A stretch of DNA of 32,020 nt, taken from Candidatus Gastranaerophilales bacterium (lineage in GTDB: Bacteria > Cyanobacteriota > Vampirovibrionia > Gastranaerophilales > Gastranaerophilaceae). The notes under the pieces were generated by a model. The model did not search any database. It had not been told where the DNA came from and saw only the letters and a program-made list of their open reading frames with translations. The position numbers and the translations under genes were made by a program. This document shows positions 12,573-16,592 of the stretch, piece by piece (the stretch's first letter is position 1; each line of letters starts with the position of its first letter). The stretch is from positions 1-32,020 of the forward strand of contig CALUPJ010000029.1 in the NCBI GenBank assembly GCA_944322555.1, given 5' to 3'.

Positions 12573-14585
12573 ATGACCAAGTTTTTGCTGATTAGTGAGG
12601 ATAGCGAAAAAGAAAGTATCGTAAAGGAAGTTTTTCCGGTTGACGAAGTTATTGTCTCCTGTGAACAAACTTTGATTTTTGATATTCTAAAGGTAGAAGA
12701 ACCCGATATTGTTATTGTTGACGGAGATATTGAGAGTTTGGATTTAAAACCTCTCTGCAGGAAAATTAAACAATATCCGGTTGTTATATTGCTCATAATC
12801 GGTGAAAAAGAACATAATAAAGACATTATGCATAATGCTAATCTGTTTCTTAAAACCCCTGTTGATAAAAATTTGCTTATGGCAACCGTGGATTCCGGCT
12901 TAAAAACACGGCTTTCTCTTTTGAAAATGACAAAATCAAATCAGGAACTTGCCCGCAGCCTGTATCAACTCAATGTTCTTTATAATACAAGTTCCCAGCT
13001 CGCAGGAACGCTTGATAAAGACAAGCTTATAAAAATTATGATTGAAGGCATTGAAAAATCTCTGAATTTTGAGCTTTCCTGCACGCTTCTATTTCGTTCC
13101 GAACGCGAACCGGTTTTGATTATTAATTCACTCTACAAAATTTCGGACAGACTGTTGGAAGCTCTGAAATTAAGAGCAATTTTAAGCTACAAATCCCTGC
13201 TTTCAGACCCTCCCATGGATATAAAGATAGGGAATTTGAAGATTGAAAAAAATATCAAGCATAATATACAGGAATATGATTTTTCAATATTAAGATTTGA
13301 TAATATGTTTGCACCGATTAGTTTGAATGATGAATTCTTCGGTTTTACGGAAATATATAGAGAAAAACCATTTTCTACGGAAGATGCAACATGTTTTCAA
13401 ACACTTGTACAGCAGGTTACAATACCGCTGCAGAGCGCATCATTTACACAGGAATTAAAAGCAACCAACAGAAAGCTGGCAAAACTTGAGCGGCTCAAGT
13501 CGGAATTTATTTCTATAGTATCCCATGAGTTAAGAACACCGCTTACGGCAATTAAAAACGCTATGGATATTATATTAAGCGGAAAAGCCGGTGAAATGAG
13601 CGAAAATATTGAAAAATTCGTATCTATGGGTAAACGTAATGCAATAAGACTTTCCGGTATAATTAATGACCTTCTTGACATTTCCAAGATTGAAGCGGGT
13701 AAAATGGATTTCAAATTTGAACTTATACATATAGGGCCCGTAATAGAATACGTGAAAAATAACCTGTCTGAAGTTGCAAAAGAAAAAAACCTTACCATAA
13801 AATATATTCCCTCTGATGATGATGTGGAAGTCTATGCGGATTCTAACAGGCTGGAACAGGTTTTAACAAATCTTGTATCAAATGCAATAAAATTTACTCC
13901 CGATGCAGGAGAAATAGAAATAACATCGAAGGTTGTCAATGCAAGAGAACTTCAATATGACCATTGTTTTGAAGAGGATATAAAAAGGCTTCAGGGAAAT
14001 TATCTTCAAGTTTGTGTAGAAGACCACGGTATCGGAATTGAGCGCAAAGATTTAAATCATGTATTCGACAAGTTTGCCCAGATAGAAAATTCTCTTTCGA
14101 GAAAAGTCGGCGGTTCGGGGCTTGGGCTTCCGATTGCGAGACAGCTTATGGAATCCCACAACGGAGCGATTTGGTGTGACAGCGAAATTAACAAAGGTTC
14201 TCGTTTTTATTTTGTAATACCGATTGCTAATGATAAGAGTAATTTCACAATGATTAGAAAACAACTTGTACAAAAGGCACGTTCTAACGGTACTACAATA
14301 GCCGTAATTAAAATTAAATCAACAAACGAAGTTATTGAGAATTTGCTAAAAGAAAATAATTTATTAAATAAGACTTATATGACTAATTCGCTTATCGAAA
14401 AAGAAGGGGCAATGACCTCTCTTTCCATAATTTTAATGGATGGAGACAAGCCCTCCGCAGAATTTTTGAAAAAGAAAATTGACTCCGTAGTTGAACAAAA
14501 TAAGAGCTTGTACGGAGAATGTGATATAATGTATTCATACGAGATTGAAGGAGATACACATGAAAAAGATACTTATAGTGGATGA
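12573..14585 (+). CDS. soluble sensor histidine kinase (receiver-like, GAF, HisKA, HATPase)
   Basis: The 670-residue kinase has no membrane segment. A receiver-like domain fills about residues 1-115, with D50 in VIVDGD and K in FLKTPVD. A GAF-like region (about 140-300) follows, then HisKA with FISIVSHELRTPL (phospho-acceptor H318), and a HATPase domain with NLVSNAIKFTP (N437), VEDHGIGIERKD and GGSGLGLPIA. A C-terminal extension of about 115 residues after FYFVIPIA is unidentified; TTIAVIKIKS faintly recalls a degenerate GGDEF start. ATG 12573 is preferred. A TATTAT box lies six bases before it, and no ribosome site is present. The last 26 bases overlap the receiver gene. Confidence 0.88.
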   Translation: MTKFLLISEDSEKESIVKEVFPVDEVIVSCEQTLIFDILKVEEPDIVIVDGDIESLDLKPLCRKIKQYPVVILLIIGEKEHNKDIMHNANLFLKTPVDKNLLMATVDSGLKTRLSLLKMTKSNQELARSLYQLNVLYNTSSQLAGTLDKDKLIKIMIEGIEKSLNFELSCTLLFRSEREPVLIINSLYKISDRLLEALKLRAILSYKSLLSDPPMDIKIGNLKIEKNIKHNIQEYDFSILRFDNMFAPISLNDEFFGFTEIYREKPFSTEDATCFQTLVQQVTIPLQSASFTQELKATNRKLAKLERLKSEFISIVSHELRTPLTAIKNAMDIILSGKAGEMSENIEKFVSMGKRNAIRLSGIINDLLDISKIEAGKMDFKFELIHIGPVIEYVKNNLSEVAKEKNLTIKYIPSDDDVEVYADSNRLEQVLTNLVSNAIKFTPDAGEIEITSKVVNARELQYDHCFEEDIKRLQGNYLQVCVEDHGIGIERKDLNHVFDKFAQIENSLSRKVGGSGLGLPIARQLMESHNGAIWCDSEINKGSRFYFVIPIANDKSNFTMIRKQLVQKARSNGTTIAVIKIKSTNEVIENLLKENNLLNKTYMTNSLIEKEGAMTSLSIILMDGDKPSAEFLKKKIDSVVEQNKSLYGECDIMYSYEIEGDTHEKDTYSG

Positions 14586-14937
14586 CGAGCAGGACATCGT
14601 AGAGAGCCTCAAGTTCGTTTTGGAAGTTTCGGGCTTTGTGTGTTATACGGCATATAACGGCGAGGATGGGTTAAAACTCGCAAAAGAGATTATGCCGGAT
14701 TTGATTATTCTTGACGTTATGATGCCGAAAATCAACGGATATAAGATAAGCAGGCTCCTTAAGTATGACAGCAAATATAAAGATATTCCGATTATTATGG
14801 TAACGGCACGTTCCCAGCTTGAGGATAAAATGATCGGCGAAGAAACAGGTGTTAACGAATATATTACAAAACCTTTTGAGCTGGATGAAATAGTTAAAAA
14901 AGTTCAGGATTATCTCGGAAAAGAACAGGAAGGCTAA
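14560..14937 (+). CDS. CheY-like single-domain response regulator
   Basis: The 125-residue protein is a lone receiver domain: acidic triad start KILIVDDEQD, phospho-acceptor D52 in LIILDVMMP, the switch Thr in IIMVTARSQ and the conserved Lys in ITKPFE. It has no output domain, so it signals by protein contact. AAGGAG (14548-14553) lies six bases before ATG 14560, inside the 3' end of the kinase gene. The overlap with the kinase and the 43-base gap to the ATPase-like gene indicate one transcript. It is the likely phosphate target of the kinase next door. Confidence 0.92.
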   Translation: MKKILIVDDEQDIVESLKFVLEVSGFVCYTAYNGEDGLKLAKEIMPDLIILDVMMPKINGYKISRLLKYDSKYKDIPIIMVTARSQLEDKMIGEETGVNEYITKPFELDEIVKKVQDYLGKEQEG

Positions 14938-14980
14938 ATAGTCATACTGATAATTAAGGGCGGTGCAGCGAAGGAAACAG

Positions 14981-16369
14981 ATGGAAACAATTACAAATAA
15001 AACATTGGAGAAACTTAAATATGAGCTCGTACGCGATGGAATTGTTACGTATGAGACACTTGAAAAAGCTGAAGAACTTGCCAATGTTCAGAGAATTAAT
15101 ATAGGGCAGGCATTAATTAATTCCGGCATTTTGGAAGAAAATACCCTGCTTAAGTTTTTGGAAAGCAAACTCCATATTCCGTACGTTAACCTTGAAGATT
15201 ATGAGCCTGATGAAAAGTGCTTTAAATTTATATCATTCGCGGATGCAAGAAGATACGGGATTATTCCGCTTTTTAAAATTGAAGATGTTCTGACTGTTGC
15301 AATGGCTGATCCTCTGGACTTATTTGCAATAGATAAAATTATTGAAACGGCGGAATGTTCAATAGAACCTGTTATTGCATCTGAAGCCGGCATAATGAAA
15401 AAAATTGATGAATATTATAAAGTTGCGGATACGGTAGACAGCATAACACTTACATCCGAAGAGGACGAAGATTTTGACTGGACGGAAGAGCTGCATAAAG
15501 AAGAAGCCGGAGAAGAACATATCCAGCGCGTTATAAGAGCAATTCTAAAACAAGCAATACTTGAAGATGTACATGAACTAAACTTTGAGCAGTCAGAAGA
15601 AGGACTTAGAGTTGTATTCAAGAAAAACGGAGAAATTTTTGATAAAGGAACCGTGCCGGCAATTTTAAATTCAGCATTTGTTTCTAAATTAAAAACTCTT
15701 TCCAATCTTGATGCTTCGGTTTGTGAAATCCCGCAGCTCGGTAAACTTTGTTTTAAAGTGGAAGACACTATGCTTATTGCTTCCGTATCATCTTTTCCGA
15801 CAATTATGGGCGAGAGAATTTCCCTAAAAATTTATAAACCGCCTTTAAAGCTTGAAAAAATTATAACAGATGAAAAACAAAGAAGTACGATAGCTCACGC
15901 TCTTGACAATCCGGGCATAATCCTTGTATGCGGTTCTCCGCTAAGCGGAAAAACTCACATTATATATTCACTGCTTATGGAAGCTGTAAAGTCCGGCAGA
16001 AATATTATGACAATTGAGTCTATTGCAAAGTATGAGCTGAAAGGTGTTAATCAGTGCGAACTAAACGAAAATATCGGATTTAACATGGACAAAGCTTTGA
16101 GATATGTGGAATTCCAGTCGCCTGATATTATTTATCTTGAGGGAGTAAAAACCCGTGATGCTTTTGAATTTTTGTCCGAACTTTATTACAGTGATAAAAT
16201 TGTACTTACCGAGTTTATGGCAAATAATATGACTGATTTAAGACAAAAGCTTGCTTTTGAAGATTTTCAGGCATTTAAATCGCTTATTTCATGTTTGATA
16301 TTTATTCATTCAAAAGACAGTATAGAAGTTTTTGATAAATCTACCTTGCAGAAATATCTCGGCGGGTAG
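14981..16369 (+). CDS. GspE/PilB-like ATPase with MshEN domain and degenerate catalytic motifs
   Basis: The 462-residue protein has an N-terminal MshEN/GspE-N domain (about 15-145), a family in which some members bind cyclic di-GMP. The rest resembles type II secretion and type IV pilus ATPases. Walker A is intact in form (G-S-P-L-S-G-K-T, 318-325). The Asp box reads TIESI where TIEDP is usual. The Walker B region reads DIIYLEGVKTRD in place of the usual VGEIRD. The His box reads LTEFMANNM and lacks His. The four-Cys zinc motif and part of the C-terminal region are missing. It may bind nucleotide but hydrolyse it poorly. AAGGA precedes ATG 14981 by five bases. It follows the CheY-like gene by 43 bases. 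Confidence 0.82.
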   Translation: METITNKTLEKLKYELVRDGIVTYETLEKAEELANVQRINIGQALINSGILEENTLLKFLESKLHIPYVNLEDYEPDEKCFKFISFADARRYGIIPLFKIEDVLTVAMADPLDLFAIDKIIETAECSIEPVIASEAGIMKKIDEYYKVADTVDSITLTSEEDEDFDWTEELHKEEAGEEHIQRVIRAILKQAILEDVHELNFEQSEEGLRVVFKKNGEIFDKGTVPAILNSAFVSKLKTLSNLDASVCEIPQLGKLCFKVEDTMLIASVSSFPTIMGERISLKIYKPPLKLEKIITDEKQRSTIAHALDNPGIILVCGSPLSGKTHIIYSLLMEAVKSGRNIMTIESIAKYELKGVNQCELNENIGFNMDKALRYVEFQSPDIIYLEGVKTRDAFEFLSELYYSDKIVLTEFMANNMTDLRQKLAFEDFQAFKSLISCLIFIHSKDSIEVFDKSTLQKYLGG

Positions 16370-16394
16370 TAAAATAGGGATAAGGAGAAAATTT

Positions 16395-16592
16395 ATGTAT
16401 CAAGTTTATATTGACAAACCTTCATATTTTGAACCTGATATGGCAGGAGAATTTAAGGATTTAGATAGTGCCGAAGCTTTTGCAAAAAAAGAGAAAGCGG
16501 CAGACAGCGAAGTATCATACGAAATAAAAGAAACAAACGGTTGCTTCAACAGCTATGGAGAGCTTATAGCAACGGTTGTAAAACGCGGCTAG
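16395..16592 (+). CDS. hypothetical protein, 65 aa
   Basis: A small acidic protein of 65 residues with no recognised domain. It opens with MYQVYIDKPSYF and ends with YGELIATVVKRG; it has no signal peptide or membrane segment. The start is set by AAGGAG (16382-16387), seven bases before ATG 16395; a longer upstream reading would overlap the ATPase-like gene in another frame. It lies 25 bases after that gene and is probably the last member of its transcript. Seven bases separate it from the convergent rimO. Confidence 0.7.
   Translation: MYQVYIDKPSYFEPDMAGEFKDLDSAEAFAKKEKAADSEVSYEIKETNGCFNSYGELIATVVKRG

Follow-up and report, generated by a model that had tools for sequence, protein, structure and literature searches.

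A soluble histidine kinase, a single-domain receiver and a catalytically degenerate PilB-like protein are encoded together in a Gastranaerophilales genome, and their gene order in relatives indicates that the three genes are kept together as a unit across the order. We consider it somewhat probable that they form one phosphorelay module, in which a signalling-only PilB would be switched by the receiver, would act mainly through its MshEN-fold domain and would not be tied to the pilus. The Gastranaerophilales are an order of gut bacteria, non-photosynthetic relatives of cyanobacteria. The window analysed here (32,020 nucleotides) is one entire contig (G000:C29) from a 1.79-Mb draft assembly (142 contigs, 92% complete), whose nearest relatives among public genomes are 'Candidatus Gastranaerophilales' and further gut metagenome genomes. 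The three plus-strand genes make one unit: the receiver gene shares 26 bases with the end of the kinase gene, and the PilB-like gene, referred to below as pseudo-PilB, starts 43 bases after the receiver. All three were found where a first-pass annotation of the sequence had placed them and, as it had said of secretion genes, no further secretion ATPase was found on the contig. A promoter scan gave a match count not above that of shuffles. The literature search found no paper on a kinase-receiver-pseudo-PilB cluster. The features of the locus are as follows.

12573-14585, plus strand: soluble histidine kinase, 670 aa (HisKA and HATPase_c Pfam matches; conserved partner)
13497-13700, plus strand: HisKA dimerisation/phosphoacceptor domain, with His318 (Pfam, 9e-16)
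13839-14228, plus strand: HATPase_c domain (Pfam, 3.2e-27)
14560-14937, plus strand: stand-alone receiver, 125 aa, PhoB-like, without output domain (PF00072, 1.3e-28)
14981-16369, plus strand: PilB/GspE-family pseudo-ATPase, 462 aa (profiles, a clade with 100/100 support, AlphaFold model)
15011-15082, plus strand: MshEN motif I, residues 11-34 (R to K11, G to K13, L to E/D/Q31, Q to A/S34)
15098-15169, plus strand: MshEN motif II, residues 40-63 (R to N40, Q to K/R63; other positions kept)
15932-15955, plus strand: Walker A, residues 318-325, GSPLSGKT (kept in 81/81 copies)
16016-16024, plus strand: former Asp box, ES for ED (alignment of 81 copies)
16118-16150, plus strand: former Walker B region, residues 380-390 (SPDIIYLEGVK for DPDIILVGEIR)
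16178-16225, plus strand: former His box, residues 400-415, without the His (alignment of 81 copies)
16392-16592, plus strand: 66-aa ORF, outside the conserved module

The last of these had been counted, as a 65-residue protein, as the closing member of the set. The ORF is present and had no matches in Pfam and NCBIfam; it was ruled out as a fourth module gene, since no more than 4 of the 80 related loci contained it.

Both hallmarks of a two-component system were present, namely the phosphoacceptor His and ATP-lid motifs in the kinase and the Asp/Asp/Thr/Lys set in the receiver. The kinase consists of a divergent receiver-like N-terminal region, a GAF-like middle, HisKA, HATPase_c and a variable C-terminus, and gave no membrane-domain match. 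Its initial description as REC-GAF-HisKA-HATPase was confirmed by Pfam for the last two domains; the REC and GAF regions were assigned by alignment and inspection alone, because Pfam recognised neither at E ≤ 0.01. The catalytic core of the kinase is predicted to be intact, with H318, N433, N437, D484, G486/G488 and G514/516/518 each kept in 69/69 sequences. The same is predicted for the phosphorylation site of the receiver: D8, D9 and D52 were kept in all 70 sequences covering those positions, and T82 and K104 in 71/71. Receiver identity across the order ranged between 64 and 97%, and the receiver was better conserved than the kinase. The earlier description of a lone receiver gene overlapped by the kinase gene was accurate.

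The distribution of pseudo-PilB was surveyed phylum-wide at E ≤ 1e-40, in 107 family genomes, 1 sister-family genome and 136 genomes outside the order. It was found in 106 of the 107 family genomes and in the sole sister-family genome, and in 0 of the 136 genomes outside the order at this threshold. Linkage was assessed at 76 informative loci, those in which the sequence reached 700 bases or more upstream of pseudo-PilB. The receiver lay directly upstream in 68 of these (median gap 41 bases), and the kinase was inside the fetched stretch in 68 as well. Six of the eight unlinked cases had kinase and receiver together elsewhere in the genome; in the remaining two genomes, both drafts without a completeness estimate, neither gene was found. 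Nearly all loci had the receiver, not the kinase, as the nearest partner of pseudo-PilB. The one family genome without pseudo-PilB (G160, 99% complete) was missing the kinase and the receiver too. Its congeners G170 and G236 keep ATPase and receiver, with the kinase confirmed in G170. Further conserved neighbours were absent, the next-commonest ORF family occurring at 16 of ~86 loci. A 151-aa ORF was seen between receiver and ATPase at about four loci (for example L033:7253-7708). The linkage of the ATPase with kinase and receiver claimed in the first-pass annotation was thus borne out in relatives, by the 68 loci and by the joint loss in G160, and only receiver and kinase recur beside the ATPase. 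Neither of the observations that it had named as contrary to a conserved pseudo-ATPase, catalytic homologues in pilus operons or a lack of linkage, appeared.

Pseudo-PilB belongs to the PilB/GspE family, as revealed by a PF00437 match (1.3e-29) and by the N1D-N2D-CTD arrangement in both sequence and fold. The MshEN domain, already recognised in the first-pass annotation, was recovered as PF05157 (4.8e-19). The profile search against PilB, PilT and GspE families gave the PilB model TIGR02538 as the best NCBIfam match, at 207 bits versus a cut-off of 676. AlphaFold modelling from close homologues only reached a pLDDT of 70, and from a deeper alignment 84; the core of the latter model matches PilB and GspE structures. 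In the tree, the pseudo-PilB copies formed one clade (support 100/100) on a long stem. True PilBs, with ~20% identity to pseudo-PilB, formed a separate clade. Neither pilC nor any other pilus gene accompanies pseudo-PilB; in relatives, the true PilB and PilC are found elsewhere.

Catalytic motifs were compared over 81 pseudo-PilB copies, with the PilB and PilT proteins of the same lineage as references. Walker A was invariant (G318, G323, K324 and T325 in 81/81), an indication that binding of nucleotide is of importance in the main family. The Asp-box Asp was replaced by Ser347 in 81/81 copies, so that the canonical IEDP reads IES, and the His-box His by K406, also in 81/81 (canonical TGHLVLSTxHTN). 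The 'GE' of Walker B was flipped to E387-G388 in all 81, leaving a Gly at the position of the catalytic Glu, and the Asp of its 'DP' was S, N or Q380; the canonical DPDxILVGEIRD appears as SPDIIYLEGVKT. Within N2D, PQDG[RT] was changed to PQLGK and F-R-[VI] to A-S-V. The two positions lost there, K255 and A267, are presumably arginine-finger sites, an assignment made from general knowledge. The four-Cys zinc motif and the C-terminal region are absent, the protein ending before that region. These catalytic changes were invariant or nearly so over the 81 copies. ATP hydrolysis in the PilB/GspE family is impossible without Asp box, catalytic Glu, His box and arginine fingers. Judged by its residues, pseudo-PilB lacks what ATP hydrolysis by the known mechanism needs. 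The pattern noted originally, with Walker A kept and the Asp-box Asp, His box and zinc motif lost, held in all 81 copies, but the loss of the two candidate arginine fingers had been missed.

Such motif losses, with Walker A wholly gone in a sister family, could also mean that a PilB pseudogene is decaying next to a two-component system with which it has nothing to do. However, dN/dS between relatives was ~0.01-0.1 (Nei-Gojobori), also within pilus-less genera; these values are rough, because synonymous sites were near or at saturation. Pseudo-PilB is under strong purifying selection. With a dN/dS well under 1 and a presence in 106 of 107 family genomes, the gene is not in decay, and this conservation, together with inheritance as a unit, refutes the pseudogene explanation, to which we give a negligible chance. 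A different role would be that of an ordinary MshEN-type c-di-GMP effector gated by the receiver, and the first-pass annotation had indeed proposed that the protein reads a second messenger. The c-di-GMP motif, RLGxx(L/V/I)(L/V/I)xxG(L/V/I)(L/V/I)xxxxLxxxLxxQ, occurs twice in such domains (Wang et al., PMC5013675). Both Arg and both Gln were replaced in all pseudo-PilB copies compared, as were the motif I Gly and one Leu, and the NCBIfam c-di-GMP motif model scored 23 bits, below its cut-off of 38. The broken motifs had been overlooked; with both Arg and both Gln lost, reading of c-di-GMP by pseudo-PilB is unlikely. In Xcc17 XpsE, loss of c-di-GMP binding was ascribed to motif changes of a similar sort (PMC5013675). 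The presence of the domain, the seven GGDEF matches in the window's genome and the report that perfect motif conservation may not be required for binding (PMC5013675) speak for an effector. Set against the replacements in every copy and the low motif score, they leave it very improbable.

Pilus genes bear directly on the proposal that the module acts on a pilus motor whose genes lie elsewhere. A full PilB of ~680 aa, adjoining PilC, is present in most family genomes, and most module-bearing genomes also have pili. Four genomes from two genera (G181, G239, G212 and G227; 97-99% complete) had no PilB, PilC or PilT. They gave zero T2SSF matches, and the pseudo-ATPase alone exceeded the T2SSE cut-off in them; this absence rests on metagenome-assembled genomes with an estimated completeness of at least 97%. 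Pilin N-methyl matches numbered 0 in three of the four and 2 in the fourth; the genomes with which they were compared had between 6 and 62. All four keep kinase and pseudo-ATPase, with the receiver beside the ATPase in every one of these loci. The converse case is G160, with PilB and PilC present and the module absent. Because four genomes without PilB, PilC and PilT keep the whole module, its target need not be the pilus motor, and the original proposal fails as a general rule; pilus-motor control may be one function in piliated members. If pseudo-PilB were generally a subunit or regulator of such a motor (in a mixed hexamer, as a decoy or as a competitor for the platform), with the receiver setting extension, the frequent PilB-PilC pairs, the retained PilB fold with its invariant Walker A and the already known receivers acting on PilB would all fit. 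The motor-less genomes that keep the module at low dN/dS, the reverse situation in G160 and the separate clade of the true PilBs do not, and we regard this explanation as unlikely. Less likely still is a reversed flow of information, in which pseudo-PilB would sense for or regulate the kinase and the receiver would be the output on an unlinked target. In its favour, the Dif kinase pathway of Myxococcus lies downstream of PilB (PMC5544727), and kinase sequences are less well conserved here than those of the receiver. Yet the ATPase lies nearest to the receiver in nearly all loci, and a sensory region is already present at the N-terminus of the kinase.

Several further observations were made on pilus genes and gene order. 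PilM (PF11104) was of no use as a pilus marker, because even genomes that have PilB and PilC gave no match above its cut-off. A loss of PilB in the window's genome was rejected as real biology, since five congeners have PilB and the draft is incomplete and fragmented. PilT matches on contigs C117 and C75 were dismissed as module partners, being ordinary PilT proteins in unrelated contexts; on C117 of the window's genome, 68 bases are shared between a PilT-like and a recO-like gene (L093:5417-7271). The pilin N-methyl matches of two family relatives, 62 in G112 and 30 in G088, form an unusually large pilin-like set for small genomes (1.7 and 1.9 Mb). Several genera encode an extra T2SSE protein of ~500 aa besides PilB and PilT (G228:C37:6104-6955, G224:C1:37752-38600). 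In G181, which has no pilus motor genes, the kinase gene is inverted relative to receiver and ATPase and is still adjacent (L156:5867-8923).

The sister-family copy (family f2, G191, L127:7747-8982) indicates which domain matters. There, the order kinase-receiver-ATPase is kept and Walker A is entirely lost. Identity to the window's pseudo-PilB was 53% for the N-terminal domain, 31% for N2D and 17% for the ATPase core. As only the N-terminal MshEN-fold domain stays alike, its sequence makes it the best candidate for a conserved contact, either with the receiver or with the target. The core would have acquired a role that keeps Walker A in the main family, because it is under selection there too; nucleotide binding is possible as a structural or sensory feature of this core. 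Genes resembling fliL, fliM and fliN were found on the opposite strand a few kb from the f2 cluster; flagellar-like genes were not a conserved neighbour at other loci.

In the phosphorelay module that we favour, the kinase would phosphorylate the receiver, as suggested by gene overlap and inheritance as a unit, and the receiver would bind pseudo-PilB. This contact, and neither ATP hydrolysis nor c-di-GMP, would set the conformation of pseudo-PilB, which would relay the signal to another protein by direct contact, chiefly via the MshEN-fold domain at its N-terminus. The signalling-only PilB would have arisen once, in the ancestor of the order, and would no longer be tied to a pilus. By analogy with Myxococcus PilB, our guess is that a cell-envelope or exopolysaccharide process is finally controlled. 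The old motor is probably now a signalling part, because its engine parts were lost and its conservation is strict even without pilus machinery. That a motor ATPase left the pilus and became the dedicated output of a kinase and receiver, reading neither ATP turnover nor c-di-GMP, we propose tentatively, giving it a little under an even chance.

Until now, the evidence that PilB can signal independently of pilus assembly has come by inference from laboratory mutants of a functional motor. In the Gastranaerophilales, evolution made the separation: a dead PilB that has a kinase and a receiver of its own is kept order-wide and survives pilus loss. For this reason, the PilB fold as a pure signalling device is directly testable with three small soluble proteins. 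If true, a receiver-gated pseudo-motor would be a new kind of response-regulator output. The case is also a warning for annotation, since pseudo-PilB passes the T2SSE cut-off and would be called a PilB/GspE ATPase in genomes unable to make a pilus.

Among known systems, the best sequence and structure match is TIGR02538 PilB (Geobacter 5tsg/5zfr/6olj), which shares N1D (MshEN), N2D, the core fold and Walker A. In contrast to it, pseudo-PilB is without Asp box, catalytic Glu position, His box, the two N2D positions and the zinc C-terminus, lies outside a pilus operon and stays far below the model cut-off. Another close system is Myxococcus xanthus PilB, a PilB fold that signals without hydrolysis or a pilus and is tied to a kinase/receiver pathway. 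There, the ATPase-dead K327A variant signals exopolysaccharide production without pilin, and the nucleotide-free form was the one that signalled: the Walker A mutant did, the Walker B Glu mutant did not (PMC5544727). The analogy is one of principle, not of detail, because pseudo-PilB keeps Walker A and loses the Glu position. Moreover, Myxococcus PilB is a working motor that moonlights, studied through laboratory mutants, whereas pseudo-PilB is a distinct paralogue, inactive by nature, whose gene lies beside those of its own kinase and receiver. Receivers acting on PilB are known as well. EmvR of Xanthomonas oryzae, a single-domain regulator with a partner kinase, binds PilB and reduces the ATPase activity of PilB, an effect that depends on the phosphorylation site of EmvR (PMC11973254); PixE is thought to bind PilB1 in Synechocystis, as cited in PMC7690835. 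A contact of this kind would be expected for the receiver described here. The target of EmvR and, as far as that citation goes, of PixE is an active motor; here it would be a dead paralogue, present also where no motor exists. Bd2402-type MshEN response regulators likewise join an MshEN domain to receiver function (PMC5013675), but Bd2402 binds c-di-GMP, whereas here the motif is broken and receiver and MshEN protein are separate genes. The parts, receivers that bind PilB and ATPase-dead PilB that signals, are thus already known, and their combination here is a new variant.
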